From positions 1 through 53,690 of the forward strand of contig JAUICL010000012.1 in assembly GCA_030427905.1 (NCBI GenBank): a stretch of 53,690 bases of DNA, in the 5' to 3' direction. Made by a program: the position numbers and the translations under genes. Shown here piece by piece: positions 34,033 through 53,690 of this stretch (positions are counted from its first letter, which is position 1; every line of letters begins with the position of its first letter). The notes below the pieces were generated by a model. It did no database searches, had not been told where the DNA came from, and worked only from the letters and a program-made list of their open reading frames with translations. This DNA is from Bacteroidia bacterium (GTDB taxonomy: Bacteria; Bacteroidota; Bacteroidia; Flavobacteriales_D; Cryomorphaceae).

Positions 34033-34042
34033 AGAAGTGATT

Positions 34043-34109: not shown

Positions 34110-35117
34110 TTACTTGACCATCAAGCGGCGTACAGCCTGGTAACCGTTTTGCTGAACGCGTACGATGTATACACCTGGAGTCCACTCACCAAGGTCTACT
34201 TGTGTAAGTTTTGATGTCAATTGCGTATTGTACACTTCTTGACCAGCAATGTTTGTAACCATCACATTAGCCGTTCCCGCTTCTTTTAGAGAGATGTTTA
34301 ACACATCCGTAGAAGGGTTTGGGTAGATGTTGAAGATGTCTTGATCGATTTCGGTCACACCGATCGTTCCCTGGTAGTACACCTGTAGGTAAGGGCGACG
34401 CTCTGGGTGGTTTGCACCATCGCCTGGGTTTCCTTCTGGGTCAGTGTCTTCTGGATCGGCGATGTTTTCGAAAGCCGTGAATTCTCTGGCGTTGTCAACG
34501 ATAGAAGGCCCTTGATCTTGTCCGAGTAGGATCAGTGCAAGTGCATTACCTGAAACCCAACCTTCGCGGTTTACGATTTCCTGGATAATCGATCCTACAT
34601 CATTGGTTTTATACGGTTGCCAAATGGTCCATTCTTCAGCCACAGTCCAATCTACCTGAGCGGTAGTTTGCGGACGGTCGGTAAGAAGGTAGCCTCCGTT
34701 GAAATTGTCTTCGTCGAATGTAACGGCATCGTCTGTAGCTTCACCTACAATCAGGATTTCCGCCACATCTTCAGCGTCTTTTCCTTCGTGAGCGTGGAAT
34801 ACAACAAAGGCAGAGTCGATTACTGCTCCCTGTGGAATTTCGATGTTTTGGAAACGAAGACCAAGAGTCAAAACGTTAAGGTCTTCTGGGTCGCCTTGCC
34901 ACCCTGCATCTAGGTCATCGTCGTAAGGGCTGTCAACCTCGTCGTTTTCCTGTTCTGCATCGTCAGAAGAAAGGTCAAGGGTTACGATTGTTCCGTTGTC
35001 TAGGGTATCAGTTACTTGACCTCCGGTACCGAGGATAAAACGTTCAAAAGTTACTTGCTGCGCCATTGCGTTAACAGCAAACAAGGAAAGAGTAAGATAG
35101 AGTAAAGTTCGTAGCAT
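34110..35117 (-). CDS. T9SS-exported DNRLRE-like surface protein
   Basis: A 335-residue secreted protein: signal peptide (MLRTLLYLTLSLFAVNAMAQ), a beta-rich domain (about 22-255) with the pattern LRFQNIEIPQGAVIDSAFVVFHA and WQPYKTNDVGSIIQEIVNREGW, resembling DNRLRE-type (carbohydrate-binding-like) domains, and a T9SS type A sorting domain (IFNIYPNPSTDVLNISL to RRLMVK). It is the first gene of the phytase/receptor block. The acidic stretch (SSDDAEQENDEVDSPYDDDLDAG) could bind calcium. Role unknown; perhaps a surface partner of the receptor. Confidence 0.85.
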   Translation of the reverse strand: MLRTLLYLTLSLFAVNAMAQQVTFERFILGTGGQVTDTLDNGTIVTLDLSSDDAEQENDEVDSPYDDDLDAGWQGDPEDLNVLTLGLRFQNIEIPQGAVIDSAFVVFHAHEGKDAEDVAEILIVGEATDDAVTFDEDNFNGGYLLTDRPQTTAQVDWTVAEEWTIWQPYKTNDVGSIIQEIVNREGWVSGNALALILLGQDQGPSIVDNAREFTAFENIADPEDTDPEGNPGDGANHPERRPYLQVYYQGTIGVTEIDQDIFNIYPNPSTDVLNISLKEAGTANVMVTNIAGQEVYNTQLTSKLTQVDLGEWTPGVYIVRVQQNGYQAVRRLMVK

Positions 35118-35139
35118 AATTTTGTGATTTAATTTTCGG

Positions 35140-35147
35140 CAAACGTA
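35140..35147 (-). promoter_or_regulatory. Bacteroidota -7 promoter element upstream of phytase block
   Basis: On the minus strand 35147-35140 reads TACGTTTG, an exact match to TAnnTTTG, 22 bp before the start at 35117. The -33 TTG is not evident. Confidence 0.4.
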
Positions 35148-35374
35148 GATGGATTGCGGGCAGGAGGCGTTAGGCTCAGATTAAGTTTTGGAACCTGTTC
35201 TTTACGATTAGTTCACATCCGTGGGGTGTTTGGGGTGGAGTTTTCGGGTTGGGGTTGGGACCCGTTTGAGACTTTTTGATGGTGTATCTTCTTGATTTAT
35301 GCAGGGATGGTGGGATTGAGTTTATGTTACCAAATGTTTAACTGGGCGTGGTAATATGAAGTGGGTGTGAATTT

Positions 35375-35550
35375 GGTAGTGGGTATTGGGTAGCCCCGAT
35401 AGGGATCGGGGTCTCCGCTGCGCTACGATGGGTATTGGGTATTGGGTATTGGGTATTGAGTATTGGGTATTGAGTATTGGGTAGTGGGTATAGGGTATTG
35501 AGTATTGGGTATTGGGTAGTGAGTAGTGGGTATTGGGTATTGGGTATTGC
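35375..35550. repeat. G-rich heptamer repeat (gggtatt)n
   Basis: More than fifteen imperfect copies of gggtatt/gagtatt/gggtagt, interrupted by the hairpin ccccgat/atcgggg. Runs of four consecutive GGGTATT units meet the usual G-quadruplex pattern on the plus strand. The rest of the 35118-35689 gap shows no gene. Confidence 0.9.
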
Positions 35551-35689
35551 GGAGCGGTGGAAGTAACTGAAAGTGATAAGTAAGGGTCAATAGCATTCAC
35601 TAAAGCTGAAAAAGGGTGATTTCCACCGTGTGTTCTGAAGGGTAAGTCGGCAAAAATGTCTAAATTCATAGGGAATTAATATTGGACGG

Positions 35690-38008: not shown

Positions 38009-38078
38009 GATTTTGGACTGGTAATACGGTCATCCCACCCATTTGCTAGTCGACACAATTCACATGCTTAACGAGAGT

Positions 38079-38110
38079 TTTGACTTTTTAATCGAAACCA
38101 CGTACCTTTC
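38079..38110 (+). promoter_or_regulatory. Bacteroidota-type promoter for paralog 2
   Basis: TTTG at 38079-38082 and TACCTTTC at 38103-38110 (one mismatch to TAnnTTTG), 20 bases apart. Transcription would begin near 38117, leaving a leader of about 60 bases before the ATG at 38180 and supporting that start. Confidence 0.5.
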
Positions 38111-38179
38111 AGCCCCTTTTAAAGATTGCGCTTACAAGTCTTGAAGGAAAAGTTTGAACCAAGTCAAAAACCAATCACT

Positions 38180-40429
38180 ATGAGACAAAAGGTGCGTTCA
38201 AGCCATATCGGTAGCTGGAGAAGAACATTTCTAGCCCTGATATCGCTATTCCTATTGCAAACCACAGCCGAGGCCCAATCGGACTGCGAGTCGTTCGGGT
38301 ATTTTCTATCCAACAATACGTTTTGGGGCTCAGACGTGTACCGCGTAGAGTTAAATGATGACACAGGCGTGGCCGAGATGACCTGGATTAAATCCTATCC
38401 ATTCTCTATTCAAATAGCCTTTAACGAGGACAATGGTCTGCTATACGTGATTCGCAAAAGTAGCGGCGCCTATAGCACTTTGGACCCATCGACCCTTGAT
38501 GGCCCTACCTCACCTACCACATTGCTCGGCACATCTATACCGAATGTGACAGCGGCCAGTTTTTCTGACGGAAGTCTTTACTTAGGTTCTTCAACCACAG
38601 ACGGGGTTTACCAAGTCAATCCATCCACGGGAAATGCCGTTTTGATAGCTGAAGCGGATATTTCAGGAGGTGATATCGTAGTGAAAAGCGATGGTAGTGG
38701 TTTTATCGCATCGAAAGTTCAAGGCGGCTCCATGTATGGCCTGAGCGAGGAAAGCGAAGTGACTTACGTGGGTGAGGCTCAAAGCTTGATTGGCGGACTC
38801 GCCCTTAAGTCGGATAACCAGCTGGTATCTGTCGGAAAGTCATCTTCGATTATGCAGGTCTATAATCCGGATGGAACTATGAGTTCATCGGAGTACACAC
38901 TCCAGCTTAATGGCTCTAATTTCAATATGAGGAATGGAGACCTTGCCTCAGGATGTGAAGACATAGGCTTAGTAGAGTCATGTAACTTTATTTGGTTTGG
39001 AACGCACGATAATTCTCAAGGCTCTCAAGACCTGCGAAGACTCTCCATTGGTTCAGATGGACAAACAATCGAAGACGTCATTTACTTGTCAAATATTGAC
39101 GCTTCGAGTATTGCGATTCACCCAAATGGCGAATTGATCTACACACTCTCGGGCTCCGAATTGAAAACGATAGAACTTGAAACACTAACTGAAATAGATG
39201 TCAGAACCGTTTATGGGCAGCTTACAGGAGAGATGACAGGTTTTTCTGGTCTCGCATGTAATGAGCTCGGCGAAGTGTTTGCATGCCACGATGCCACCAA
39301 CCGAGTATACCGGATTTCAAACAATGGACTAGCTCAACCCTACGGCCCTCCGACAACCATTGCAGACGGTGACATCTATGCAAACAGTGACGGTGTCTGG
39401 TTGATCACCTCCAACAACCTTTTTAAAGTAGAAACAGGAGAAGCATTCCCCTTCCCATACGAAACCCCGAAAGGAGTGGTTGAAACATTCAATGGCAACT
39501 TACTGATTATGGCTTCGGAGCTCAACGGAGAAATAGTGGAATGGAACCCAGAAACAAACGCGGTTGTCAATACGTTTACGACAGATTTAGATCTTTCGGA
39601 AGGCGACTTTGCTGGCGGGTGTATTTTGGATGAGCCTATCATTGATCCCGACAGACCACCATGCTTTGCTGAGACGGTGGTTTATTATGAAGCCGGCGTT
39701 GATGAGTTTGGGCTTCCTCTCGAGCCAGACCGATCGAACCCAAATAAAGTGTTGGGTGAGCCTGAGCGGATCGACGACGATGTTTACGCTAGCCTTGGAT
39801 ACGGTGGTACGATCATTATTGAAATGACGGTTTACGATCAAGATGGATTTGATGTTGAAATCGTAGAAACCAGCTTTAACAGTCCCGGCTGTTCCGACTA
39901 TCCGGAGTATGCCGACGCCTTCATTTCGGTAGATGGATTCACCTGGTATTTTGCCAAAACGATTTGTAAGAGCGACGATTTGATAGACATAGATGACGTG
40001 GTAGGCTATCCATCGAACTGGGCCAATTACATCAAGCTCGAAAACAACAATGAGCTTTCGACTACTGCCGATGGTTTTGACCTTGACGGAATAGAGATCG
40101 TACAGTGTTTGGATTTAGATGGGCTTCCCAGTGATGATCTTCCAAGCGGTTTCACCGACAATGGCGGAGGGGTTGAAATGAACGTTTACCCCAACCCGAG
40201 TGGTGATACTCAATGGGTAGAGCACGTGGCAAAGACGAGCGGCAATGTTCGGATTGACATTCATGGTTCGGATGGTGAAATCGTAAAGACCATTTTTAAT
40301 CAGCATGTAGAATCGGGAGAAGAGATTCACCGGTCGATTGATGCAGGGTCTCTCCAACCTGGCACTTATGTTTATAGATTAAGTGGTCCGGATGGGTCGC
40401 AGTTTGTGAGGACAGTTGTGCTGCCTTAG
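38180..40429 (+). CDS. T9SS surface protein, propeller family, paralog 2
   Basis: About 749 residues from the ATG at 38180; an upstream in-frame ATG at 38126 would add 18 residues before the signal peptide and lie almost at the predicted transcription start. The signal peptide ends near TTAEAQ. Two propeller halves follow (CESFGYFLSNNTFWGSDVYRV and CNFIWFGTHDNSQGSQDLRRL), then the discoidin-like domain (CFAETVVYYEAG to DGFDLDGIEIVQC) and a T9SS sorting domain (MNVYPNPSGDTQWVEHV to FVRTVVLP). It lacks the Cys-rich module present in paralog 1. Conserved phrases shared with both neighbours include VETSFNSPGCSDYPEYADA and AKTICKSDD. Confidence 0.88.
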   Translation: MRQKVRSSHIGSWRRTFLALISLFLLQTTAEAQSDCESFGYFLSNNTFWGSDVYRVELNDDTGVAEMTWIKSYPFSIQIAFNEDNGLLYVIRKSSGAYSTLDPSTLDGPTSPTTLLGTSIPNVTAASFSDGSLYLGSSTTDGVYQVNPSTGNAVLIAEADISGGDIVVKSDGSGFIASKVQGGSMYGLSEESEVTYVGEAQSLIGGLALKSDNQLVSVGKSSSIMQVYNPDGTMSSSEYTLQLNGSNFNMRNGDLASGCEDIGLVESCNFIWFGTHDNSQGSQDLRRLSIGSDGQTIEDVIYLSNIDASSIAIHPNGELIYTLSGSELKTIELETLTEIDVRTVYGQLTGEMTGFSGLACNELGEVFACHDATNRVYRISNNGLAQPYGPPTTIADGDIYANSDGVWLITSNNLFKVETGEAFPFPYETPKGVVETFNGNLLIMASELNGEIVEWNPETNAVVNTFTTDLDLSEGDFAGGCILDEPIIDPDRPPCFAETVVYYEAGVDEFGLPLEPDRSNPNKVLGEPERIDDDVYASLGYGGTIIIEMTVYDQDGFDVEIVETSFNSPGCSDYPEYADAFISVDGFTWYFAKTICKSDDLIDIDDVVGYPSNWANYIKLENNNELSTTADGFDLDGIEIVQCLDLDGLPSDDLPSGFTDNGGGVEMNVYPNPSGDTQWVEHVAKTSGNVRIDIHGSDGEIVKTIFNQHVESGEEIHRSIDAGSLQPGTYVYRLSGPDGSQFVRTVVLP

Positions 40430-40437
40430 ATGTTTGG

Positions 40438-40793
40438 ATTGAGTAGTGGGTATTCCGCCTTCGCTGAAGCTATGGCGGATGAATAGGGTATTGGGTATTG
40501 GGTATTGGGTATTGAGTATTGGGTATTCCGCCTTCGCTGAAGCTATGGCGGATGAATAGGGTATTGAGTAGCCCCGATAGGGATCGGGGTCTCCCATCGG
40601 ACGCCATCCGCGTGTCGCCGTAGCTTTCCGCGAGCGCCGAAGCTACTCTGCGGAGGCACTAGCGGAGGAGCAAGGCTTGCCGTCGGCGCGGCGCTGCGCT
40701 ACGATTGGGTAGTGGGTATTCCGCCTTCGCTGAAGCTATGGCGGATGAATAGGGTATTGGGTATTGAGTATAGGGTATTGGGTAGTGGGTATT
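40438..40793. repeat. G-rich heptamer repeat, second cluster, with palindromic inserts
   Basis: gggtatt/gagtatt units interrupted by three copies of the palindrome ccgccttcgctgaagctatggcgg and by ccccgat/atcgggg. It begins 9 bp after the stop codon of paralog 2. Confidence 0.88.
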
Positions 40794-40836
40794 TGTCATT
40801 CCCTGATTTAGGTTGATCAACGCTAGTTTCACCAAC

Positions 40837-40937
40837 ATTGTCGCTTTACTTCGATACACCCCTCAAGCTTTCGGGGCACTCAGTATGACGCTGAGTTATT
40901 TGCAGTTCAACTGTCAAAAGTCCTCCCCCTGCCCCCT
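40837..40937. repeat. Dispersed hairpin-array repeat, short copy 4
   Basis: Shares attgtcgct...cttcgatacacccc, the ctcaagctttcggggcactcag stretch and the cctccccctgcccc tail with 29546-29643. The remaining spacer to 41374 contains no gene that I can support. Confidence 0.8.
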
Positions 40938-41374
40938 CTGAAGGGGGAAGGTTCGCGTAGGTAGAGTTTTATTTTCCTATGATTCGCATGTTATTCTGGA
41001 GAAATCAGATTGGATAATTCCGCTGCGTTGTCCTCCCCCCCTGCCGGCTACCCACGTACCTTGGCGGGAAGAGCGATGTGATAATGAAAAAATTCCACGC
41101 CATACGACTCTCTCTTCATGCGGGAATCTGGAGCAGAACAGGGTTATTTCACCCAAACACACCCTTAACAGAAAGATAACCACGACAAACCCATTAATAC
41201 CTTCGATTAATTTCATATATTTGAATACTAACCAATTGATCTTACCGTCGCATTCTAGTTTGGGTGCACGTCTAAATACGTTTTGATATCTACTATTCTG
41301 TGGTCTTGAACTGAGGAAATCGCAAGGCTAACAGGAACTATCTAGACCAATTGCTAACCAATTAGTAAACCGAT

Positions 41375-41743
41375 ATGAAATCATTTCGCTTGGGGATGTT
41401 GCTACTTCTATTGATGGGAGTTTCAGCATATTCATTTTCCCAAAACGCTCAAGCTACTCTCCGACATGATGGAAGCTTGAAGCTCGATGTCGACCAGCCA
41501 CTCACGGAAGCGTACGAGGTTGACGCAACTCAGTTTAATTTTTACAATCTTGAAGAAGCAATCGCCTACTTCAAAGAAGTGAATACGGACCTCGTGATTT
41601 ACCGGCCCGTATTGCACAATGATCTAGTCATGGTCTATCTCCAATTGAAAAAGCAGCCAAGCTGGACAATTGAAGATTGGAACGCTTATCTCGAAGAGCA
41701 CAAGACTTTAAAAACCGCTGTTCAACACGATACAGCCAAATAA
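41375..41743 (+). CDS. Small secreted protein of unknown function
   Basis: A 122-residue protein with a clear signal peptide (MKSFRLGMLLLLLMGVSAYSFSQ) and a short mature domain rich in acidic and aromatic residues, including NFYNLEEAIAYFKEVNTD and SWTIEDWNAYLEEH. No family recognised. It lies 8 bp upstream of the 1408-residue choice-of-anchor L protein and is almost certainly co-transcribed with it, which suggests a helper or partner role (inference). No sorting domain, so probably periplasmic. Confidence 0.8.
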   Translation: MKSFRLGMLLLLLMGVSAYSFSQNAQATLRHDGSLKLDVDQPLTEAYEVDATQFNFYNLEEAIAYFKEVNTDLVIYRPVLHNDLVMVYLQLKKQPSWTIEDWNAYLEEHKTLKTAVQHDTAK

Positions 41744-41751
41744 GCCAGACC

Positions 41752-44700
41752 ATGAAAAAACTCAATACACTTTTAAGCACGGCCATGCTCTTTGTAAGTG
41801 CATTTGCATTTGCACAGATTGATGTGGTCTCTGTGAACAATAGCGACGACCTAGCGGACGTTCTCATTGGAGACGCTAGTGGTATAACCATTGTCAGTAC
41901 AAACTTGATCGGAGCCGACGGTTCTTGCGGAACATTCTCAGGAGGTGACTTCGGCTTTGAAGAGGGAATTCTCTTGACTTCTGGAATCGTTGGCAATGCT
42001 GTTGGGCCGAATTTGAGCGGTAGTATTTCAACAAATAATGGAACGCCAGGTGATCCAGCACTCGATCTCTTGGCATCGCCATTTTCGACGAATGATGCCG
42101 CCATCCTGGAAATTGTATTTATTCCGGAAGGCGATATTCTCGATTTCACCTATGTATTCGGATCAGATGAGTACAATGAATATGTATGTTCCACTTTCAA
42201 TGACGTCTTTGGATTCTTTCTTTCTGGTGGAGTATATACGGATGAAAACATAGCTCTGATTCCGGGTACCGATCCACCGATACCTGTGGCCATTAATAAT
42301 GTGAACAATGGCTCAATTGGGTCAAATGGATCTGAAGATAACTGCGCAGAAGACCAACTTGCTAATAGTGCTTACTTCGTAGACAACACAGATGGTTTAA
42401 CCATTGAATACGACGGCTACACTACACCTTTGAACGCGACCTTATCGGTTGAGCCTGGCACAGAATACACATTGAGATTAGCCATCGCAGATGCGGGTGA
42501 TTCCAGCTTCGATAGTGGTGTCTTTATTCAGGCTGGAAGCGTGGTTTCCGCCGTTTGTGATGCAGGTGAAATCGAAATAGTTGACCTCGGGTCGCTTGAG
42601 ATTTGCTTAGATGACTTAATGCCCGTTTACGATTTATCAAATAACGGAGATGGAACCAACGATGAGTACGTCTACCTTTTAACTGACTTAGATCTGAACA
42701 TTCTGCAGATTGCCGATGGATTTATCGAAACAGGAGATTGGACATCTGGAGAGTACTTGCTTTGGGGGTTGAGTTATTCCGGAAACATTCAGGGCCTAAT
42801 GGTGGGCGCCAATGCTGGTGACCTTAGTTCACCTGGATGCTATGAACTTTCAAATCAGCTCACGCTTGTGATAGTTGATGACTGCGATCCGTATGATTGC
42901 GAAGAGCTTATGGCCAATATTGGTGATAGCTGCGATGACGGCGACGATATGACCGTGAACGACATGGTGAGTGAGAGCTGCGAATGTGCTGGCGAATTGA
43001 TCGTATACGATTGTCCAGACCTCATGATGAATCTTGGTGACGCATGCGAGGCAGGCGGCTTGTCAGGAACTATTATGGAAGGATGTGAATGTGTTCCAAA
43101 CCAGGTAAATGAAGGTTGTGAAAATTACGCTCTATTCCTGTCTGACAACGTTGACGGAATGTCGCACATCTATCGAGTAGATGTCTCGGGAAGCACAGGA
43201 ACTATGACTTGGCTCAAGAGCTTTGACTACACAACGCATATCGCCTATGATCAAACGGAAGACCTGCTCTATGTGGTACGTGCTGAAAACGGCTCCTTCC
43301 GCACCCTTGACGTAAGTGTTGTAGATGGAGTAGCTTCTCCCGAAACTGCAACAGATGTTCCGCTAGGCTCGGCTGTTGCTGTTGGGATGTCGCCAGACGG
43401 AGAACTCATAGTAGGTAGCCAAGACTCTCAGGAACTATCTATTGTGCACACAGGAGATGGCACTATCAGTTATTATGCAGATGCAGCCATTCAAGGTGGT
43501 GATTTTGTAATCGGAAATGACGGGACACCCATACTTGCCACAAGAAATGGTGGGGTATTGTACGCTGTTTTCCCGGGATTCATGAACATGTTAATCGGAA
43601 CCAGCAGCCCTCAAGTAACTGGACTAGCCGTGTTAGAAAGTGGTGAATTACTCTTCTCTGAAGCTGGGAGTTCTAGCTTGACAGGAAGAGCTATGGACGG
43701 TACCGACAATGGCATGACGGTTGATCTCATGTTGGATGGATCACCATTCACCGCTTCCAATGGCGACCTGGCCTATGGGTGCATGGACCCCGAGCCTGTG
43801 TTTGAAGGGTGTAACAATTTTATGACGTATTACGTCAATCACGGCCCAGGCGTATCTGGCTCAAACCTTTACAAGGTTGATTTTGTCGGCAATGAAGCCG
43901 TATTGACCCACGAATTAAACGTGAACTACCAGATTCACATGGGTATGAATGCCGAAGATGGCGTGGTATACCTTGCGAATGCAAATGGGAATTTCATTGA
44001 GTTCTTTGACGTGGCTACTTCCACAGTTTCTGGAAACCTTCCTATCGTTGGTGACATCAATCAACTGTATGCCGTAGTATACAATCCTGCTGACGAACTA
44101 CTCTATGTAGGGGATAGTGGTGACGATGAAATATACACCATAGACCTTACAACGGGTATTGCCACATTCTATGCAGACGCTCCAGTGCAAGGAGGTGACT
44201 TGGTATTCCAAGAAGGAATTCTCTATTTAGCGAAGCGCTCTACAGACGACCTATTTACCGTAGTAGCAGATGGAGATGGCGTACCAGATGGCGTTTCAGA
44301 CGCCACTCTCATTGGCTCACTCCCCGACGAGACGAATGGTATGGCCGCTGCCAACAACACAACAAGTCTAATTTGTGCAAGCTATGGAACTTCCACCTTC
44401 TCGGAGATCAGCAATACGGATGGCACCTTGATCCAAGAATATCTGGTTACTCTAGGTGGCGATCCATTCCCCATTCGCCATGGAGACATGGCATCAGGAT
44501 GTGCTGATGGCGAAGGTGGCGAAGATGGTTGTGACTACAAACTCTACTACACTCATCAGCCACAGGGTGGAAACTACTCGCTGAATAGCGTCGTGCTGAA
44601 TAACGATGGAACAGCCACTGTCACTGAATTCATGGCCGACCTTCCATCTTCTCATATTGCTCTATCGCCAGATGGTGATTTAATTTACATTGTAGGTGGA

Positions 44701-45978
44701 AGCAATTTGGACATTTACGAAGTGTCATCTGGCCTAATCATCTCAACCGTACCGATCGTAAATGAATCAGGTGCCGGTCTTTCTGGATTCCCTGCTGCAG
44801 TGTGTGGTGATGACGGAACGCTGTATGTTGCAGGTGGTGGAAACAAGGTTTATACACTAGCCCTGGATGGCACAGCCACTGCCATCGCATCAAACGCGGG
44901 TGTCAATGGCGGAGATCTCGTTTTTGCCGCAGGCGACTTATGGTTGATCAATAGATCATCGAATACGTTCATCAATATTACTGACCCTGGAAACGACTTT
45001 GTAGTTCCAGTTACCGAAATCAACGGTGCAGCTGTTCTAGAGAATGGCAATGTATTGGTAGCCGATGGAAATGGTGATGGGCTATTCAAAGAGATTGACC
45101 TTAATTCGCTTGACATCGTTGACACTTACGAAACGGGCTTAGCCCTATTCAATGGTGATATGGCTGGCAGATGCTTGTCTTCTGAGCCAGTGATAGAAGA
45201 AGGATCGTGCTACGCCGAAAAAGTAGTGGAGCGTATCGAAGGCACCACGTTGGGTGGTGGGGCCATTCCTGCAAACAGGAATGATGAAAACCAGGCGCTC
45301 GGAATGCCTGAGCGCACGGATGAAATAGTCTTCTTGTCACTTGGTTATGATGGAGGCATCATTCTAGGCTTTGATGGATCCGTGCCAAACGAAGACGGCG
45401 ACGACATTGAAGTAGTAGAAACCACATTTGGAGATCAAGATTGCGACTCGTACCCAGAGTATGCCGATGTATACGTTTCAATGGACGGGGTAGATTATCA
45501 ATTTGCCAAAACCGTTTGTAAGAATGATGCATTTGTCGACATCAGTGATGCAGGCGACATGGACTACATTATGTATGTGAAGATCATGAACAACAACGAG
45601 CTTTCTTCGACTAGCGATGGATACGACCTCGATGGTGTTGTAGCACTTCACAATTGTGATGATGAACCAAATGATGAAGAAGGTGGAATTGATAGTCCGG
45701 CAATTGTAATGGAAAGTGGCGATAAATTGAGCTCGTTCCCAAATCCTGTTACAGAGCAATCGACTATTCAATTCACAGCGCAATCAGAAGGCCATGCCCT
45801 ACTTGAAATTTACGACATGAATGGACGAGTAGTTACTTCAATTCTCAACCAAGAAGTTGTTGCGGACACCCCATATCAGCTCAATTTCGACGTATCGAAT
45901 TTGACCAATGGCATCTACATATATAAGCTGACAACAAACACTGGAGTAACCATTGATAAAATTATTGTCAATAAATAG
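41752..45978 (+). CDS. Giant T9SS surface protein: choice-of-anchor L plus propellers, paralog 3
   Basis: About 1408 residues from the ATG at 41752, which begins the signal peptide (MKKLNTLLSTAMLFVSAFAFAQ). Order: choice-of-anchor L domain (LADVLIGDASGITI to NDVFGFFLSGG and beyond, about 28-260), two Cys-rich modules (CEELMANIGDSCDDGDD...CECAG and CPDLMMNLGDACEAGG...CECVP, about 383-455), three propeller segments (CENYALFLSDNVDGMSHIYRV, CNNFMTYYVNHGPGVSGSNLYKV, CDYKLYYTHQPQGGNYSLNSV), the discoidin-like domain (CYAEKVVERIEG to DGYDLDGVVALHNC) and a T9SS sorting domain (SSFPNPVTEQSTIQF to KIIVNK). It ends in a strong terminator. Likely a surface adhesin or glycan-binding fibre. Confidence 0.9.
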   Translation: MKKLNTLLSTAMLFVSAFAFAQIDVVSVNNSDDLADVLIGDASGITIVSTNLIGADGSCGTFSGGDFGFEEGILLTSGIVGNAVGPNLSGSISTNNGTPGDPALDLLASPFSTNDAAILEIVFIPEGDILDFTYVFGSDEYNEYVCSTFNDVFGFFLSGGVYTDENIALIPGTDPPIPVAINNVNNGSIGSNGSEDNCAEDQLANSAYFVDNTDGLTIEYDGYTTPLNATLSVEPGTEYTLRLAIADAGDSSFDSGVFIQAGSVVSAVCDAGEIEIVDLGSLEICLDDLMPVYDLSNNGDGTNDEYVYLLTDLDLNILQIADGFIETGDWTSGEYLLWGLSYSGNIQGLMVGANAGDLSSPGCYELSNQLTLVIVDDCDPYDCEELMANIGDSCDDGDDMTVNDMVSESCECAGELIVYDCPDLMMNLGDACEAGGLSGTIMEGCECVPNQVNEGCENYALFLSDNVDGMSHIYRVDVSGSTGTMTWLKSFDYTTHIAYDQTEDLLYVVRAENGSFRTLDVSVVDGVASPETATDVPLGSAVAVGMSPDGELIVGSQDSQELSIVHTGDGTISYYADAAIQGGDFVIGNDGTPILATRNGGVLYAVFPGFMNMLIGTSSPQVTGLAVLESGELLFSEAGSSSLTGRAMDGTDNGMTVDLMLDGSPFTASNGDLAYGCMDPEPVFEGCNNFMTYYVNHGPGVSGSNLYKVDFVGNEAVLTHELNVNYQIHMGMNAEDGVVYLANANGNFIEFFDVATSTVSGNLPIVGDINQLYAVVYNPADELLYVGDSGDDEIYTIDLTTGIATFYADAPVQGGDLVFQEGILYLAKRSTDDLFTVVADGDGVPDGVSDATLIGSLPDETNGMAAANNTTSLICASYGTSTFSEISNTDGTLIQEYLVTLGGDPFPIRHGDMASGCADGEGGEDGCDYKLYYTHQPQGGNYSLNSVVLNNDGTATVTEFMADLPSSHIALSPDGDLIYIVGGSNLDIYEVSSGLIISTVPIVNESGAGLSGFPAAVCGDDGTLYVAGGGNKVYTLALDGTATAIASNAGVNGGDLVFAAGDLWLINRSSNTFINITDPGNDFVVPVTEINGAAVLENGNVLVADGNGDGLFKEIDLNSLDIVDTYETGLALFNGDMAGRCLSSEPVIEEGSCYAEKVVERIEGTTLGGGAIPANRNDENQALGMPERTDEIVFLSLGYDGGIILGFDGSVPNEDGDDIEVVETTFGDQDCDSYPEYADVYVSMDGVDYQFAKTVCKNDAFVDISDAGDMDYIMYVKIMNNNELSSTSDGYDLDGVVALHNCDDEPNDEEGGIDSPAIVMESGDKLSSFPNPVTEQSTIQFTAQSEGHALLEIYDMNGRVVTSILNQEVVADTPYQLNFDVSNLTNGIYIYKLTTNTGVTIDKIIVNK

Positions 45979-46028
45979 GCTTATATGAATTGAGTGTAAA
46001 CTTATTACTGCTATGTACTAAGTCGCAA

Positions 46029-46062
46029 GCCCGGGAGAATGATCTTCCGGGCATTTGCTTTT
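46029..46062 (+). terminator. Intrinsic terminator after paralog 3
   Basis: A 10-bp stem GCCCGGGAGA/TCTTCCGGGC (one G-T pair) with a 4-base loop atga, followed by atttgctttt. It lies 51 bp after the stop at 45978 and separates this operon from the next. Confidence 0.85.
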
Positions 46063-46272
46063 CACAATTTCATTCATCACCAAAATTTCACAATTAAGCC
46101 ACATTTTCCAACACTACACCTTATATATACACTCATTCGAAGAAATGAACCTAAACAAATAGGATATAGGTAGAATTCCCAGAACCCACGCAGTTCGCCA
46201 ATACCCGAAAGAAAGGCGGGTTTAACACAAAATTAAATTTGAAAATCATATAATTTTTTATCGATACTCCTA

Positions 46273-46302
46273 TTGACTTGGTCGATATAATTCGTAAATT
46301 TG
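46273..46302 (+). promoter_or_regulatory. Bacteroidota-type promoter for the dockerin/cohesin operon
   Basis: TTG at 46273-46275 and TAAATTTG at 46295-46302, an exact match to TAnnTTTG, with 19 bases between. Transcription would start near 46309, leaving a leader of about 75 bases before the ATG at 46383. Confidence 0.7.
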
Positions 46303-46382
46303 GGGGATGCTGTATTCAGACCTGAAGCCTTTCAGGTGGTTTTCAGCGATGTTTACAAACGTTTAACCAATATCATTTAACT

Positions 46383-49300
46383 ATGAAGAAACAGTTTACT
46401 GAACTGATTGGAGTATGCTTTACTCTGGTCTTATTATTAATTGGCACATCAGGTGTACAGGCGCAGTATTGCGATGTAGACGATGGTGGAAACACCACGG
46501 ATGACTGGTTAGCTGGCGTAGAATTTGCTGGCATTGATAATGAAAGTGGTAGCACAGTTTACACTGACTACACGGACATTTCAGGAGTCGTGGTTCCGGG
46601 CCAAACTTACCCGTTCACCGCTACCATCGGTAATAGTGCAACGTGGGATCAATATGTCACCGTATTCATCGACTGGAATGGCGATGAATCTTGGAACAAT
46701 GAAGATGAGCGGTATGATATTGGCAACTGTGCATCAAACAACTGTACAGTAACCGCTGACATCCTAGTTCCTGCTGGCCTTCCTAGTGGCGAAGTAAGAA
46801 TGCGAGTTATCGAGAACTATTTCTCTGCGGTACCTGACGCATGTACACCGGGGACATACAGTGAAACAGAAGACTACACACTTCAAGTGCAGGGTGATGG
46901 TAGCTGTCAGCTGCCTATTTTCTCGTATGATGTTATAGACGACTGTGAAGCTTTTACTTATTCTGTAACTGCAACACTCACAGACTTCAATGAGAACACG
47001 TTTATTACGATCTCAATGGTTCGTTCTGACGATGTTGAAGTGGATGACGTAACTCTTCCTTTCGTTCTTGAAGGTCAAACAGTTAACGTAATTGAAAATC
47101 TTCCGTTTGGAGTTTCGGTTTCTGCTACTATTTCGGCAGGTCCTGATTGTTCAACTTCGCGTTCTTGGTCGGAAATTGGACTATGTCCTCCACCTAACAA
47201 CGAGTGTGTTGACGCCATTGCAATTGCATGTGGTGAAACATCATCAGGTTCAACTGAAAACGCTTCACCAGTTGAAGGATTTGCTCCTGAATTTGGCACA
47301 TGTGGAACAACGTACACTGGTGCTCCGGCAGTATGGTACGAGTTTACGCACGGCAATAACGCTTTAGTAGACGTTTCTCTAGCTGGTTCATCTTATGACA
47401 CTAAGCTTTTTGTTGTTTCAGGTACTTGTGAAGAGTTTGCATGTTTAGCTGGAAACGACGATAGCGGTGGACTTCAGTCGGCCTTGCAATTTGAAGCTGA
47501 AGAAAATGAGACTTACTACATTATCGTAACGGGTTACGCTGCAAACTTCGGTGATTACGAATTGGCAGTTGATTGTCAAGACATTTTCTGTATAGACCCT
47601 GAATTGACTGTTTCTGCAGTAGATGCTGATGGTCTTGCCATAGAAGGATGTTTGGATGTAACTGAGGGCTATAGAGTAGAAGTTTCACTAACAGGAGGTG
47701 AAGGAAACGCAACCTACACTGTAACTGCTGGTGATAGCACTGCTACCATGGCATCGGGTGAAACTCACATTTTCGGGATTTACGCTCCAGGAACAACGGT
47801 TAACGTAACCGTAGTTGGTGATGAAGATCCACTTTGTGGAACAAGTGGTTCTGTATCAACGGAAGTTTGTCCACCAGAAAATGACTCATGTGCCGATGCT
47901 GTTGCTCTAGAATGTGGAGTACCCGTATTCGGAACGACCATAGGAGCTGAATTAGACGCTACTTGTGGTTTTGCCGGAGTCGAAAGACAAGGTGTATGGT
48001 ATACATTTACACAAGAAGGTCCGAACGTAGTTAGCCTAGAGACCTGTTTCGAGGGTACAAACTTCGACACTGACATTAGTGTATTTACAGGAGATGACTG
48101 CGACAACTTATCGTGTTTTACAGGCTTTAGCACAGATGGATTCACTGATGGTGTATTTGCATGTGAATTTGCAGGTTTTGCTGCTGGTGGAGCAGATGCC
48201 GTATTTAACGCAGAAGGTGGTGTAACCTACTACATCCTAGTATCTGGGTTCAACACAGGTAACTTCGAACTATTGGCTTCATGTGAACCAATTCTTTGTG
48301 AAACTCCTGAATTGACTACATCAATTGTAGATGCTGAAGGAAACGGATTCGAAGGATGTCAAGAGCCAGGTACCGAGTTCTATATCAATGTAGACCTTGC
48401 TGGCGGAAGTGGAAACGCTACTTATACTGTTTCAGCAACGTTGAACTTCGCAACTGTTTCAGAAGTAGTTGACGCTGATGGTTCAGTTCAATTTGGGCCT
48501 TACACGGCTGGAGCTGTCGTAGACATTGCTGCTATAGGTATTGATGATGACAATTGTGAAGTATTTGGTATTGGATCACTTGATGTTTGTCCTCCACCAA
48601 ACGACCTTTGTTCAGAAGCATTACCACTACCATGTAACGGTTCTTATATCGGAAACACTGTAGGTGGTACAGATGACTTAACTTGTAATTTCGGAAACGT
48701 TCGTCGTGGAGTATGGTTTGTTTATACTGCAGGTGATGATGACATTCAAGTTTCTATGGAAACATGTCACCCAGGAACCAACTTCGATACAGACCTATCA
48801 GTATTTACTGGAGCTGACTGTGACAACCTTGAGTGTTTCACAGGTTTCAGCGGTGATGGATACATCGATGGAGAATCAGGGTGTACTTTTGCTGGATTTG
48901 CTGCAGGTGGGCCTGATGCTACGTTTACAGCAGCTGCTGGGGAAACTTACTACATTCTATTGAGTGGTTTCGGAACAACTAGCTTTGGTGACTACGAACT
49001 GCATGTTACTTGTCAAAACCTTGCCTGTACTCCAACTGTAACAGCCACGCCTGTTGCCGATGCTGAAGGCACCCCACTTGAGGACTGTGTCCCAGAAGAT
49101 GGTGAATACTATGTTAGCGTTGAGCTAGAAGGTGGTTCAGATACAGAGCTATACCAACTTTCAGTAAATGGAGTTGATGCCGGGGCCCCTGTTTCTACAG
49201 GTACTACTACAGTAGTTGGGCCAGTAGCAGCTCTAGAAACTGCTAACATCCTTGCAATTGGTACGGATGATGAGACATGCTCAGGCGCTGGATCGACGTT

Positions 49301-51038
49301 TGTTTCAGATATATGTCCACCTGCAAACGACCTTCCTTGTGATGCGTTGCCACTAGCCGTAGATGGAGTTCCAGTATCAGGAACAAATATCAATGCCAAT
49401 GGAGATGCTGGTGAGCCAAATGTTACTACCCAAGCTTCTGTTTGGTATACAATTGTTGGACCTGAGTCAGGCCGAGTTAACATTACTACTTGTAGCGCAA
49501 ACACGACTTTTGACACGCGTCTTTCAATACAGCAAGCTGGTGTTTGTGATGATTACAGTACTTACACGCAGTTAGCCTATAATGACGATAGTGCTTGTGA
49601 GTTTTCAGGACTGCAATCAACTATCGAAGTATGTGTTGAACCGGGAGAAACTTACTACGTTCAAGTAAGTGGTTTCGGATTAGCTGAAGGTGTTTTTGAT
49701 ATCACGGCTACTGAAGTTGATGGTGGAGTTTGTAACTGTGTGCTACCAGATCTAGGTCCTTCTGGATTCACATTCGCATCTACTTTCCCATTCTGTGATG
49801 ATATCGAGAACCCTGGGTACACCCTTGAGTTCTACACACCAGAAGATCTTGGTTCATCAGAGCTAATGATCTACACTTACACCATTGATGGTGAGGAGTT
49901 TATTCTCGAAATGGGACCAGGTGAAACTGTAGTACTTGAAACTATTTTCGCAATTACAGATATCGTTGCCATTACGGTAGATATTTCTGATTCAGACTGT
50001 GTTGGAGCAGATGGTTCGATCTATCCACTTTCAGGTAGCGTAACACAACCTGATGAGGCTTGTGATCCAGACTGTGAGGGCGTGCCAGGTGGACCAGCTC
50101 TACCGGGGACACCTTGTACAACAGATGCTGATGGTCCTGGTACTTACGATGTGAATTGTATTTGTCAAGACGCGCCAGAAAACAACACATGCGATATAGC
50201 TACGCCAATTGCATGTGGTGATGAGCTTACTGGAACTTTGGTTAATGCAAGTTTGACTGAAAACTGTAATAGTGTTGCCAGAGAAACAGTATGGTATGTG
50301 TACGAAGCAGAGACAGATGGACCTGTGGAGCTCACAACATGTGTAGATGGTACCACCTTGGATACAGATATCAGTATGTATACTGGCCCAAGCTGTGATG
50401 AATTGACCTGCTTCACTGGATGGGGTGGCTTTGGATATATCGATGGAGCTAGTGACTGTCCGGTACAAGGGTTTGCCTCTTCCGGAGTCTTCGAAGCTGT
50501 TGCTGGAGAGACTTACTACATCGCTGTACACCCATTCTCACTTGGTGATGTTGGAGAATTCGCCATCTCATTGTTATGTGCTGATGAAGCATCAATCTCA
50601 GGTACAGTTGCAAATGCATGTGGTGAGCGCGATGTTACATTGAGTTTCTACGAAGCAGGAACTGACGTTATGGCTTACTCATATACTACTGACATGGTTG
50701 ATGGTTCATACTCTGTAGCTGATGTAGCAACAGGTACTTGGGACATCATTGTTAAAGTAGATGGAGCTCTTGCAAACGGTTTCGCTGGAGTTGAAATTGT
50801 CACTGGAGACAACTTACTCGAACTGGGTACAGTAGTTCTTGGAGACATTAACAACGATAACTCAGTGAATATCCTTGATGTATCGTTATTGAATGGTTCA
50901 TTCGGTGCGGTAGATGGAGATGCAAACTTCAATGCACTAGCTGATATGAACTGCGACGGTGGTATTACCATTATTGATGTATCCTTTGTTAACGCTGGAT
51001 TTAATCAAAATGGTGAATCAGCACCGATAATTGAATAA
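46383..51038 (+). CDS. Giant secreted repeat protein with C-terminal dockerin-like domain
   Basis: A 1551-residue secreted protein. Signal peptide (1-28), GEVED domain (about 38-170, with VFIDWNGDESWNNEDERYD and YSETEDYTLQV), then five PPC-like domains each opening with an NDxCxxA-type block (near residues 269, 497, 737, 979 and 1264), separated by CETPELTTSIVDAEG-type linkers, and one Cys-rich module near 1225-1260. The end is dockerin-like: GDINNDNSVNILD and ADMNCDGGITIID give two D-x-N-x-D-x6-D calcium loops about 36 residues apart (about 1487-1540). No T9SS sorting domain is seen. A promoter lies at 46273-46302 and the next gene starts 27 bp downstream with no terminator between. Confidence 0.9.
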   Translation: MKKQFTELIGVCFTLVLLLIGTSGVQAQYCDVDDGGNTTDDWLAGVEFAGIDNESGSTVYTDYTDISGVVVPGQTYPFTATIGNSATWDQYVTVFIDWNGDESWNNEDERYDIGNCASNNCTVTADILVPAGLPSGEVRMRVIENYFSAVPDACTPGTYSETEDYTLQVQGDGSCQLPIFSYDVIDDCEAFTYSVTATLTDFNENTFITISMVRSDDVEVDDVTLPFVLEGQTVNVIENLPFGVSVSATISAGPDCSTSRSWSEIGLCPPPNNECVDAIAIACGETSSGSTENASPVEGFAPEFGTCGTTYTGAPAVWYEFTHGNNALVDVSLAGSSYDTKLFVVSGTCEEFACLAGNDDSGGLQSALQFEAEENETYYIIVTGYAANFGDYELAVDCQDIFCIDPELTVSAVDADGLAIEGCLDVTEGYRVEVSLTGGEGNATYTVTAGDSTATMASGETHIFGIYAPGTTVNVTVVGDEDPLCGTSGSVSTEVCPPENDSCADAVALECGVPVFGTTIGAELDATCGFAGVERQGVWYTFTQEGPNVVSLETCFEGTNFDTDISVFTGDDCDNLSCFTGFSTDGFTDGVFACEFAGFAAGGADAVFNAEGGVTYYILVSGFNTGNFELLASCEPILCETPELTTSIVDAEGNGFEGCQEPGTEFYINVDLAGGSGNATYTVSATLNFATVSEVVDADGSVQFGPYTAGAVVDIAAIGIDDDNCEVFGIGSLDVCPPPNDLCSEALPLPCNGSYIGNTVGGTDDLTCNFGNVRRGVWFVYTAGDDDIQVSMETCHPGTNFDTDLSVFTGADCDNLECFTGFSGDGYIDGESGCTFAGFAAGGPDATFTAAAGETYYILLSGFGTTSFGDYELHVTCQNLACTPTVTATPVADAEGTPLEDCVPEDGEYYVSVELEGGSDTELYQLSVNGVDAGAPVSTGTTTVVGPVAALETANILAIGTDDETCSGAGSTFVSDICPPANDLPCDALPLAVDGVPVSGTNINANGDAGEPNVTTQASVWYTIVGPESGRVNITTCSANTTFDTRLSIQQAGVCDDYSTYTQLAYNDDSACEFSGLQSTIEVCVEPGETYYVQVSGFGLAEGVFDITATEVDGGVCNCVLPDLGPSGFTFASTFPFCDDIENPGYTLEFYTPEDLGSSELMIYTYTIDGEEFILEMGPGETVVLETIFAITDIVAITVDISDSDCVGADGSIYPLSGSVTQPDEACDPDCEGVPGGPALPGTPCTTDADGPGTYDVNCICQDAPENNTCDIATPIACGDELTGTLVNASLTENCNSVARETVWYVYEAETDGPVELTTCVDGTTLDTDISMYTGPSCDELTCFTGWGGFGYIDGASDCPVQGFASSGVFEAVAGETYYIAVHPFSLGDVGEFAISLLCADEASISGTVANACGERDVTLSFYEAGTDVMAYSYTTDMVDGSYSVADVATGTWDIIVKVDGALANGFAGVEIVTGDNLLELGTVVLGDINNDNSVNILDVSLLNGSFGAVDGDANFNALADMNCDGGITIIDVSFVNAGFNQNGESAPIIE
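47188..50580 (+). repeat. Five PPC-like domain repeats in the dockerin protein
   Basis: In-frame repeats of about 230-285 codons starting near 47188, 47871, 48592, 49318 and 50173. Each has ND(x)CxxA...C, a VWYTF/VWFVY strand, a NFDTDISVFTGDDCDNL-type strand and a GETYYILVSGF strand. The second, third and fifth share CFTGFSxDGxxDG. Divergence between copies is high at DNA level. Confidence 0.85.
50841..51002 (+). other. Dockerin-like duplicated calcium-loop domain
   Basis: Encodes GDINNDNSVNILDVSLLN and ADMNCDGGITIIDVSFVN, two loops with Asp/Asn at positions 1, 3, 5 and 12, each followed by a short helix (V-S-L-L-N and V-S-F-V-N), the layout of type I dockerins. Confidence 0.7.
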
Positions 51039-51065
51039 TGCTTGAAACGAATAAAATCTATAGAA

Positions 51066-53690
51066 ATGAATAAAAACAACCAATCAGAGAGATTGAAGAC
51101 TTACTTCAGTCGATTTAAAAACGGGATACTACTCGTGTGTCTGATGCTTGGGTTCGGCTTTGCCGAACTCCAAGCCCAGGATGGTTCGAGCTTCGTAAAC
51201 ACCATTAATGGTGAAGCGACCAACGATGTAACCCTAGAACAAGGAGAGTCATTCGACCTAGAAATAGCGGTTGATAACTCTGTGCTAGTTGATGGAGTAA
51301 CAGTAACACTCCACTTCGACCCTTCGATGCTACAAGTAGAAGGAGGAATTGAGGACCTGACAAATGGTGCCCTAACAGTTCCTTTTGCTAACCAAGTAGA
51401 CAATGAAGAAGGTTACATTACTTTTTCAAAGGCGATCTTTGGAACTGCTGTTGAGCCAGGTGGGTTTAACTACATGGGACTTACGTTCGTTGTAGTAGCA
51501 GACATGGACGGAACAACTGAAATCTGCCACGAGTTGGAAGATTTCGACATGTCGAACATTGTACACTTCGGAATCCCTTCTCTAGACCCAACGGTTGAGA
51601 ACGCTCCATGTATAAATGTGACAATTGGCGAGCCAGTTGTATTTGACTGTCCAGAGCTTGGACTGAACATTGGTGATGCATGTACTACTGATGATGGTGA
51701 AGGAGTTGTAAACGATGCATGTGAGTGTTTTGTTGACAACACACCTGAAAATGACCTAGTATGTGATGCATTGCCAGTAGACTGCGGTGGAACTTACACA
51801 GGTTCAACTGTAGATGCAACTGATGCAGACAGCCCAGAAACATGTGGTACAACTCCTGATGCACCTGGTGTATGGTTTGTACTAGAAGGTGATGGTTCAG
51901 AAGTAACTATTGACCTTTGTGGTTCTGACTACGATACTAAATTGAATGTATATAGTGGTTCATGTTCTGCCTTGGTTTGTGAAGTAGGTAATGACGACAA
52001 CACAAGCAATTGTGATGTTGACTTAAATACTTCGGCAGTAACTTTTATTTCTTCAATGGGTGTGGACTACTACATCTACATCAATGGATGGAATGGAAAC
52101 GTTGGTAACTTTGAGATGAATATCGAATGTTCAGTATTCGATTGTCCAGATCTTGAAGCGAATATCGGTGACTCTTGTGATGATGGTGACGACACAACTT
52201 ACGGAGATGCAATCGACGCAAACTGTGGATGTGTTGGTATTCCTTACGACTGTACTGAGCTTCTTGCAAACATCGGTGATGCTTGTGATGATGGTAATAT
52301 CCTTACGAGTAATGATGTTATTACAGATGACTGTAACTGTGAAGGTGAGTCTAACGTAATTTCAGTTGACTGTGCTCAGCCAATTTCTGAAACTTACTGT
52401 TACGGCAACGACGAGCTTTCAGCTTGGTTGTACGTAGGAGGAGAAGGAGAAGTGCTTAACTTGAACTTTCTTTCTGGTTTCATCGAAGGTGGTTACGATG
52501 ACATCGTAATCTACGATGGAAGTGCCGATACGGACCCTGTGCTTTACTCTACGTTGGATATTCCAACTGGATCAGGAGCTCAAGATCTTTCAGTTATCAA
52601 TGTAAACTCAACTGGCAACTCTATCTTGGTAATTGTTACATCTGATGGAAGCGTTAGCTGTGGATCAGGTTCTACTGCTTACATCGATGGATGGGAATGG
52701 GCTGTTTCTTGTGGAGAGAGCTTCGACTGTCCTGCATTAGGTGTAAACATCGGAACTTCGTGTGACGATGGTGACGACACAACATACGATGATGTAATTA
52801 ATGAAAACTGTGAGTGTGTTGGTACACCTTATGACTGTACTGCTCTACTTGCTAACATTGGTGACGCTTGTGACGATGGTGATGACAACACAGTTGGTGA
52901 TGTTGTTACTGAGAACTGTGAATGTGCTGGTACTCCAATTCCAGATAACGATACATGTGCTGATGCCATTGAGTTAGCATGTGGTGATTACGTTGTTGGT
53001 ACCAACGCTGGCGCTTCAAGCAACTTAGGTTGCGATGGAGATGAACTTCCAACAGTTTGGTATTCATTCACAGCAGAAGAAGCTGCAACAATTGTACTTT
53101 CAGCTTGTCAAGAAGAAACAGATTTCGATGTTGATATCAACATCTACACTGGTGGATGTGATGACCTAGCTTGTTTTACAGGTTGGGGTGGTGATGGATA
53201 CATTGATGGACTATCTTCTTGTGAGTTCCAATCTTGGGCTTCTTCAGGTGAGTTTGAAGCTGAAGCAGGTGTAACTTACTATATCGCCGTTACAGGATAT
53301 GATGAAGAAGAGATTGGAACTTTCGGACTTTCACTTGAGTGTGTTGTTCCTTTCGATTGTCCAGACCTTGAAGCAAACATCGGAGATGCTTGTGACGATG
53401 GTGATGACATGACTGAAAACGACATGGTTAATGATAACTGTGAGTGTGTTGGTACACCAATTTACGACTGTCCAGAGCTTATGGCTAACATCGGAGATGC
53501 TTGTGACGATGGTGATGACATGACTGAAAACGATATGGTAAACGACGCATGTGAGTGTGCCGGTACTCCAATCGAAGTATACGACTGTCCAGAGCTTATG
53601 GCTAACATCGGAGATGCTTGTGATGACGGTGACGCCATGACAGGTAACGACACAATCAACGCTGACTGTGAATGTGTTGGTGAGCCAATC
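51066..53690 (+). CDS. Giant secreted protein with cohesin-like domain and Cys-rich repeats (partial at window end)
   Basis: The first 875 codons of a protein that continues beyond the window; the frame is open throughout. The signal peptide ends at LQAQ (residue 38). Residues about 40-190 look like a cohesin-type beta-sandwich: LEQGESFDLEIAVDN, GVTVTLHFDPSMLQVEG, GYITFSKAIFG, GGFNYMGLTFVV. Next come Cys-rich modules (first at about 196), a PPC-like domain (NDLVCDALPVDCGGTYTG), two modules, a CUB-like segment (YDDIVIYDGSADTDP), two more modules, a second PPC-like domain (NDTCADAIELACG) and three modules before the edge. It is 27 bp downstream of the dockerin-like protein gene and in the same operon. 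The C-terminus, which may carry a sorting domain, is not visible. Confidence 0.85.
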   Translation, partial: MNKNNQSERLKTYFSRFKNGILLVCLMLGFGFAELQAQDGSSFVNTINGEATNDVTLEQGESFDLEIAVDNSVLVDGVTVTLHFDPSMLQVEGGIEDLTNGALTVPFANQVDNEEGYITFSKAIFGTAVEPGGFNYMGLTFVVVADMDGTTEICHELEDFDMSNIVHFGIPSLDPTVENAPCINVTIGEPVVFDCPELGLNIGDACTTDDGEGVVNDACECFVDNTPENDLVCDALPVDCGGTYTGSTVDATDADSPETCGTTPDAPGVWFVLEGDGSEVTIDLCGSDYDTKLNVYSGSCSALVCEVGNDDNTSNCDVDLNTSAVTFISSMGVDYYIYINGWNGNVGNFEMNIECSVFDCPDLEANIGDSCDDGDDTTYGDAIDANCGCVGIPYDCTELLANIGDACDDGNILTSNDVITDDCNCEGESNVISVDCAQPISETYCYGNDELSAWLYVGGEGEVLNLNFLSGFIEGGYDDIVIYDGSADTDPVLYSTLDIPTGSGAQDLSVINVNSTGNSILVIVTSDGSVSCGSGSTAYIDGWEWAVSCGESFDCPALGVNIGTSCDDGDDTTYDDVINENCECVGTPYDCTALLANIGDACDDGDDNTVGDVVTENCECAGTPIPDNDTCADAIELACGDYVVGTNAGASSNLGCDGDELPTVWYSFTAEEAATIVLSACQEETDFDVDINIYTGGCDDLACFTGWGGDGYIDGLSSCEFQSWASSGEFEAEAGVTYYIAVTGYDEEEIGTFGLSLECVVPFDCPDLEANIGDACDDGDDMTENDMVNDNCECVGTPIYDCPELMANIGDACDDGDDMTENDMVNDACECAGTPIEVYDCPELMANIGDACDDGDAMTGNDTINADCECVGEPI
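51186..51635 (+). other. Cohesin-like domain
   Basis: Residues about 41-190 of the partial protein. The pattern of G-E-S-F-x-L-x-I-x-V, then V-T-L-x-F-D-P-S-x-L-x-V, then I-T-F-S and a late M-G-L-T-F-V-V strand is that of cohesins. Assignment rests on motif reading only. Confidence 0.5.
51651..53690 (+). repeat. Cys-rich CDDGDD modules
   Basis: Eight in-frame modules of about 32-39 codons (starting near 51651, 52138, 52246, 52723, 52831, 53350, 53463 and 53580), with consensus DCPxLxANIGDxCDDGDDxT then NCECxG and four Cys. The last copies are spaced by 117 bp and nearly identical in DNA, suggesting recent expansion. Confidence 0.9.

Follow-up and report, generated by a model that had tools for sequence, protein, structure and literature searches.

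Introduction

Contacts between type II cohesins and dockerins tie the cellulosome scaffoldin to the cell surface, and OlpA of Clostridium thermocellum is a single-cohesin anchoring protein. Cohesin and dockerin modules outside cellulosomes were reportedly reviewed by Peer et al. in 2009.

The nearest published case that we found to the locus described here is "Candidatus Stygibacter" (Cloacimonadota). As far as the available parts of that report go (PMC8542988), the likeness lies in a cohesin protein with a conserved C-terminal surface-attachment domain and in C-terminal dockerins on signal-peptide-bearing peptidases; it differs in that a single scaffoldin of 3755 aa bears tandem cohesins together with carbohydrate-binding modules and that glycoside hydrolases, too, have dockerins, and those parts describe no one-to-one gene pair. 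ANME archaea also have cohesins and dockerins outside cellulolytic bacteria, but some of their proteins join a dockerin to up to five cohesins, and transporter binding proteins are common dockerin cargo (PMC9012536, in the sections available). According to the available portions of three other reports, the cellulolytic machineries of two species are without dockerins and scaffoldins (PMC6247017), cellulase-associated cohesin and dockerin domains were not found (PMC8810776), and a dockerin protein is listed in a table only (PMC6004670). Within the dockerin and T9SS literature surveyed, cohesins with a T9SS-type tail are described only for "Ca. Stygibacter," again in the parts of that report at hand (PMC8542988). 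In the surveyed literature, we found no description of a one-to-one gene pair or of a fixed gene order, which the 2009 review may touch on as adjacency; nor do the portions of it that were available describe an exchange of anchors across phyla or a division between dockerins and T9SS tails.

Here, we describe two adjacent genes of a Bacteroidota genome that probably encode an anchoring pair, in which a T9SS-exported cohesin protein would hold secreted dockerin proteins on the cell surface.

Results and Discussion

An X-dockerin and a predicted cohesin in adjacent genes

The window, by which we mean the whole stretch of DNA analyzed (53,690 nucleotides), is one contig (C13) of a genome placed in the family of Cryomorpha ignava. 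The features of its last two genes, gene 1 and gene 2, and the genome's other dockerin proteins are collected in Table 1.

Table 1. Features of the gene 1-gene 2 locus and the other dockerin proteins of the genome
Feature	Coordinates	Strand	Basis or remark
Terminator-like stem-loop between the upstream gene and gene 1	46029..46052	+	10 pairs, 7 G-C
Gene 1, secreted 1551-aa protein (GEVED + PPC + dockerin) with C-terminal X-module + dockerin	46383..51038	+	ORF, Pfam
GEVED, gene 1 residues 91-168	46653..46886	+	Pfam PF20009, E 2e-16
PPC, better of two stretches in gene 1, residues 318-384	47334..47534	+	Pfam PF04151, E 1.1e-8
X-module, CnaB/CarboxypepD_reg-like beta-sandwich, abutting the dockerin	50580..50837	+	X-dockerin model, type II matches
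Dockerin with two calcium loops	50838..51020	+	Pfam PF00404 over cut-off; phmmer 2b59_B
Dockerin calcium loop 1, canonical: DINNDNSVNILD	50844-50879	+	
Dockerin calcium loop 2, canonical: DMNCDGGITIID	50943-50978	+	
Intergenic gap between genes 1 and 2, 27 bp	51039..51065	+	Terminator scan lists no terminator-like site
Gene 2, cohesin-bearing secreted protein, 875 aa visible, 3′ end missing	51066..53690	+	ORF open at contig end
Cohesin, gene 2 residues 39-187	51180..51626	+	Pfam, profiles, model, fold search
Rest of gene 2: Cys-rich repeats, weak PPC-like stretch, CUB-like stretch	51645..53690	+	Pfam, pattern, reading
L010: T9SS-associated galactose-binding domain + dockerin			Pfam
L011: laminin-G + dockerin			Pfam
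L012: GEVED + dockerin			Pfam
L013: M43 metalloprotease + dockerin			Pfam
L014: M12B (reprolysin-like) metalloprotease + dockerin			Pfam

Gene 1 begins with a signal-peptide-like stretch (by eye) and, according to the first-pass annotation, ends in two canonical calcium-binding loops of dockerin type. This reading of the C terminus held: Pfam Dockerin_1 matched residues 1486-1537 (E 1.7e-6, 28.6 bits, cut-off 22.9), and the top eight structural matches of the X-dockerin AlphaFold model (pLDDT 95.8) each belonged to a type II X-dockerin entry, with Z values of 12.4-13.8 over 132-140 residues; the rows after them dropped to Z 6.7, for a dockerin lacking the X-module, and 6.5. Searched alone with phmmer, the X-dockerin segment retrieved 2b59_B, an X-dockerin of C. 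thermocellum (4.2e-7), and a five-member profile extended the alignment over the X-module too. On the strength of the model and these matches, the C terminus of gene 1 is an X-module plus dockerin of the type II X-dockerin class. No T9SS C-terminal signal was found in gene 1, and no cohesin was detected in it.

Gene 2 starts with an ATG at 51066, followed by a signal-peptide-like beginning (by eye) and the beta-sandwich for which a cohesin identity had been proposed. The Pfam cohesin model PF00963 is borderline, with 21.4 bits on the whole protein and 24.4 bits in the six-frame search (cut-off 24.1), and a search of genes 1 and 2 against NCBIfam (E≤1) recovered neither a cohesin nor a dockerin. 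Sequence profiles were clearer: a 20-row profile drawn from several phyla retrieved solved cohesins (best, 3l8q_A at 1e-16), as did an 8-row Cryomorphaceae-type profile (1.3e-6), and both ranked ScaB adaptor cohesins, type II per their entry titles, first. The predicted structure (pLDDT 75.7, pTM 0.74, with values of <50 at residues 123-128 and 133-138) has the cohesin fold. Its first 40 Foldseek matches were all cohesin-bearing chains, VIA-align reached a Z of up to 14.2 (rmsd 2.5, 134 aligned), and cohesin types were mixed among the best structural rows of both programs. Some pilin domains score nearly as well against this model (3kpt, Z 12.4, VIA-align), and the profile matches to solved cohesins therefore matter. 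Profiles and fold together carry the assignment of the N-terminal domain as a predicted cohesin, given the borderline Pfam score.

The remainder of gene 2 contains eight matches to the pattern that starts the Cys-rich repeat, DC[PT][AED]L, and no dockerin was seen in the visible part of the protein. Among the accessory modules named at first pass, GEVED and PPC of gene 1 both exceed the Pfam cut-off; the PPC of gene 2 is a weak match, at 15.4 bits against a cut-off of 25.9, and this gene's CUB-like stretch, at about 52356-52715, is read by eye and has no Pfam match.

Gene 2 reads open off the end of C13 and is therefore truncated. No exact overlap of ≥20 bases was found between this end and 26 contig ends; 127-base exact overlaps join three other pairs of contig ends. 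The Cys-rich repeat, of about 37 aa (DCPELMANIGDACDDGDDMTENDMVNDACEC...), has 24 matches genome-wide, and the assembly probably broke inside it, because four repeat-holding genes are 3′-open at contig ends (C13, C8, C12, and C4). Four orphan 3′ fragments at contig ends resemble T9SS tails; two exceed the Pfam cut-off, and the remaining two, 43 and 47 aa long, are not among the T9SS-tail matches. From these orphan ends and from the relatives described below, we infer that gene 2 ends in a T9SS tail.

One cohesin and six dockerins in the genome

A single cohesin was detected in the genome (E≤10), three different models agreeing on it, and six dockerins exceeded the Pfam cut-off; scored as a whole protein, the reprolysin-like protein L014 gave 19.4 bits for the dockerin, below that cut-off. 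All six dockerins end within 6 residues of the protein C terminus, and all six proteins have a signal-peptide-like N terminus (by eye). An X-module precedes the dockerin in five of the six by alignment, the M43 protease being the exception. The Pfam matches of the six proteins include no glycoside hydrolase family (0/6), which, with the single cohesin, agrees with the noncellulosomal setting proposed earlier for this pair. The accompanying statement that the partners carry such modules rather than enzymes is right for genes 1 and 2 but not for the genome's other dockerins, which sit in two cases on M43 and M12B proteases.

The stretch N-I-[LVI]-D-[VI]-S occurs in 9 of the 12 loops of the six dockerins and covers positions that we take to be dockerin recognition sites; as far as loop sequences can indicate, this would fit a single partner for all six. 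A PorU-type sortase (1295 bits) marks the T9SS as present, and the 3.8-Mb genome (G000) has at least 150 T9SS-tail matches (150 of 185 candidates scored).

Occurrence and architecture in relatives

In the order, the 8-row cohesin profile was positive in 7 of 249 genomes, all within two families, and the Pfam cohesin model (E≤0.01) in 25 of 249, a difference that points to more distant cohesins in other families. On relatives, the Pfam model gave 23.3 bits for L045 (below the cut-off), no match for L104, and none at E≤0.01 for L043. Pfam dockerins were present in 95 of the 249 genomes, 74 of which had no cohesin by either model. The window's own family (n = 8) divides into five genomes with both modules and three with neither. 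Both were also present in one genome of the sister family; a second (81% complete) has a cohesin, with no dockerin reaching the threshold. Across 395 genomes of the phylum, 90 had both, 38 a cohesin only, 46 a dockerin only, and 221 neither, giving a co-occurrence odds ratio of 11.4, computed without correcting for descent; a cohesin went undetected in 46 of the 136 dockerin-positive genomes. As a control, 14 well-known genomes were searched, among which dockerins were found in 2 and cohesins in 1 at the sample thresholds and in 9 and 2, respectively, at E≤10.

Loci fetched from the window's and the sister family contained 26 dockerin proteins. None had a T9SS tail (0/26), and four also carried a cohesin (596, 1325 [incomplete], 1646, and 2736 aa). 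The cohesin proteins with a visible C terminus (n = 14) ended in a T9SS tail in nine cases, in a dockerin in four, and in neither in one, the last being a broken 112-aa frame. This dockerin/T9SS-tail split is not universal, since an internal dockerin and a tail occur together in L217 and L231 and, weakly, in L122.

Several of these loci deserve separate mention. In L045, taken to be Cryomorpha ignava, two proteins of 596 and 2736 aa (L045:6805-8592 and L045:9462-17669) combine a cohesin with a C-terminal dockerin, and the longer has beta-helix matches; judged by their domains, they could be adaptor-like parts from which short chains might form. A Flavobacteriales MAG has a cohesin frame between two dockerin genes that stops at 112 aa (L046:10815-11150), through either decay or an assembly error. 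In other parts of the order and phylum (L110, L111, L112, L134, L143, and others), frames with one or several cohesins are often T9SS-tailed.

Gene order and anchors across phyla

Among the matches listed for the 395 phylum genomes, a cohesin lay ≤4 kb downstream of at least 30 of 144 dockerins (26 genomes), and none of the 144 had one ≤4 kb upstream in another frame. This count used the best-scoring listed matches (150 cohesin and 144 dockerin rows), required the same strand and a cohesin in another frame, and omitted four rows from the genome of the window and one from genome G015; the 4 kb is a distance between domains, and some pairs are not directly adjacent genes. A same-frame cohesin occurred in 29 of the 144 listed dockerin rows, in both orders.

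In a query with the X-dockerin only, covering 73 loci, 16 of 85 genes ending in a dockerin were directly followed by a cohesin gene and 2 were preceded by one, with a cohesin model seeded partly from the same loci that it searched; the other 69 had no directly downstream cohesin. In one of the two upstream cases (L165), the cohesin is also counted as downstream, and the other (L207) is weak. The 16 downstream pairs comprise two Flavobacteriales loci, four of Hanstruepera, and one Bacteroidia MAG, along with four loci from Bacillota, three from Chloroflexi, and two from Levyibacteriota.

The anchors on the partner cohesins vary with the host. Cohesins of the Hanstruepera kind have a T9SS tail in all five cases by our own model, with which Pfam agrees in the two tested; in Hanstruepera, the dockerin partner carries malectin and HYR domains. 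The four Neobacillus/Paenibacillus loci (L172, L173, L175, and L176) have an X-dockerin-ended protein followed by a cohesin-like protein, which bears three SLH domains in the tested Neobacillus and Paenibacillus proteins (L172 and L176). In the Chloroflexi, two partner cohesins have LysM or PEP-CTERM and the third has a C-terminal helix (by eye); in the Levyibacteriota MAG contigs (L180 and L190), the cohesin that comes after the dockerin protein has a membrane helix at its N terminus (by eye). In the Bacillota locus tested (L172) and in one from the Chloroflexi (L201), the dockerin partner is a subtilase. In a Pfam check of eight downstream proteins, five exceeded the cohesin cut-off, L177 fell below it (20.5 bits), and two Bacillota proteins matched SLH only; the Bacillota cohesins are called by our own profile only, at 14.5-22.4 bits. 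What these loci share is a leading dockerin protein followed by a cohesin whose anchor suits the host envelope.

The distances of one partner correlate with those of the other (r 0.87, permutation P 0.0001, descent not removed) over 14 hand-chosen pairs, from which near-duplicates and a broken pair (G002) were left out.

A candidate anchoring pair and its alternatives

The domains, folds, gene order, and gene counts observed here, with the dockerin/T9SS-tail split in the loci examined, are best explained, in our judgment, by surface anchoring, which we hold to be likely. The gene 2 cohesin would leave via the T9SS and be anchored at the surface, and gene 1 and the five others carry a C-terminal dockerin in place of a T9SS tail. 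Once calcium is bound, the dockerins are predicted to plug into the gene 2 cohesin, so that one cohesin would serve six dockerins, and the outcome would be a noncovalent display of proteases, lectin-like domains, and other binding domains.

Such surface retention is modeled on the type II cohesin-dockerin anchoring of cellulosomes. The clostridial type II cohesin/X-dockerin pairs (2b59, 3kcp, 4u3s, and 5g5d) share the C-terminal X-module and dockerin, are the best structural matches by a wide margin, and suggest a shared anchoring role. Unlike them, the pair described here belongs to a diderm host, a T9SS tail would replace SLH or sortase anchors, the dockerins sit on proteases and adhesive modules, and no multicohesin scaffoldin was found. 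OlpA, whose structure (3ul4) is among the Foldseek and VIA-align matches of the gene 2 cohesin, likewise has one cohesin joined to a surface anchor, as gene 2 is presumed to have; OlpA, however, belongs to a cellulosome system, whereas here the cohesin gene directly follows a dockerin gene and dockerin-bearing glycoside hydrolases are absent.

The first-pass annotation favored a different role, in which both proteins would be subunits that assemble themselves into a fiber or scaffold. Both genes are long and modular, and the 4 of 26 dockerin proteins from relatives that join a cohesin to a C-terminal dockerin would suit such a role, but this proposal is unsupported in the window's genome. With a single cohesin there, none in gene 1, and no dockerin in visible gene 2, no visible subunit has both halves, so that what is visible could form one-to-one pairs only; we consider a fiber unlikely. 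A cellulosome or cellulosome-like multienzyme complex would draw on the same module families, proteases make up two of the six dockerin proteins, and a surface-attached multicohesin scaffoldin with dockerin-bearing peptidases has been proposed for "Ca. Stygibacter" (PMC8542988, in its available parts). We rejected this reading as extremely unlikely, since one cohesin was found, and hence no multicohesin scaffoldin (the assembly gap in gene 2 being a reservation), and since Pfam placed no glycoside hydrolase on any of the six dockerin proteins.

The domains might instead be relics or generic modules that do not pair, the sandwich being a plain spacer and the dockerin a calcium-stabilized cap. 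The resemblance of the sandwich to pilin and adhesin domains is compatible with this, as are the borderline Pfam score and the many dockerin genomes without a detected cohesin. It is very unlikely in view of the co-occurrence in the window's family (five of eight genomes with both, three with neither) and in the phylum (the odds ratio of 11.4), and in view of the one-way gene order, seen in at least 26 genomes versus 0 among the matches listed.

If surface anchoring is the role of the pair, the route outward would depend on the envelope. In monoderm hosts, an anchored cohesin and a dockerin would suffice. No recognized way across the outer membrane and no T9SS tail was found for the six dockerin proteins here. 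In diderm Bacteroidota, dockerin proteins without a T9SS tail would therefore either exit by a separate route and be caught outside or exit bound to the cohesin. The T9SS moves folded proteins (PMC9251779, as far as its available part shows), so exit in the bound state is possible. The dockerin could accordingly double as an export tag, binding the cohesin in the periplasm so that the folded pair exits through the T9SS on the cohesin's signal, a proposal to which we give a rather low probability; if it were true, one cohesin protein would be a trans-acting secretion carrier for six tail-less proteins.

Surface anchoring would make the cohesin-dockerin plug a more general means of holding secreted proteins at the surface, beyond cellulosomes, with the anchor swapped to suit the envelope and the gene order retained. 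The diderm Bacteroidota raise a testable question, namely, by which route tail-less dockerin proteins reach the surface and whether the T9SS exports a bound partner. If binding is as predicted, the pairs might become new plugs for protein display.

Transcription unit and neighboring genes

Genes 1 and 2 likely form their own transcription unit, judging from the terminator-like stem-loop upstream of gene 1 and the lack of any listed site between the two genes, which suggest cotranscription; the scan gave 5 sites versus 3.1 expected, and the upstream stem is weak evidence alone. A sigma-70 scan was uninformative (8 promoter-like sites versus 11.1 expected), and Rfam had no match at the gathering threshold over 34000-53690.

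Upstream of gene 1, three successive genes of the window (35690-45978) encode T9SS-tailed proteins, each with weak matches of beta-propeller type. The tail of the middle protein is over the NCBIfam cut-off and below that of Pfam, and the third protein has a choice-of-anchor L domain. Toward the other end of the window (644-14189) lie genes for glycosyltransferases, a Wzt-like ABC transporter, and an MBOAT acyltransferase, which are probably involved in surface polysaccharide synthesis.
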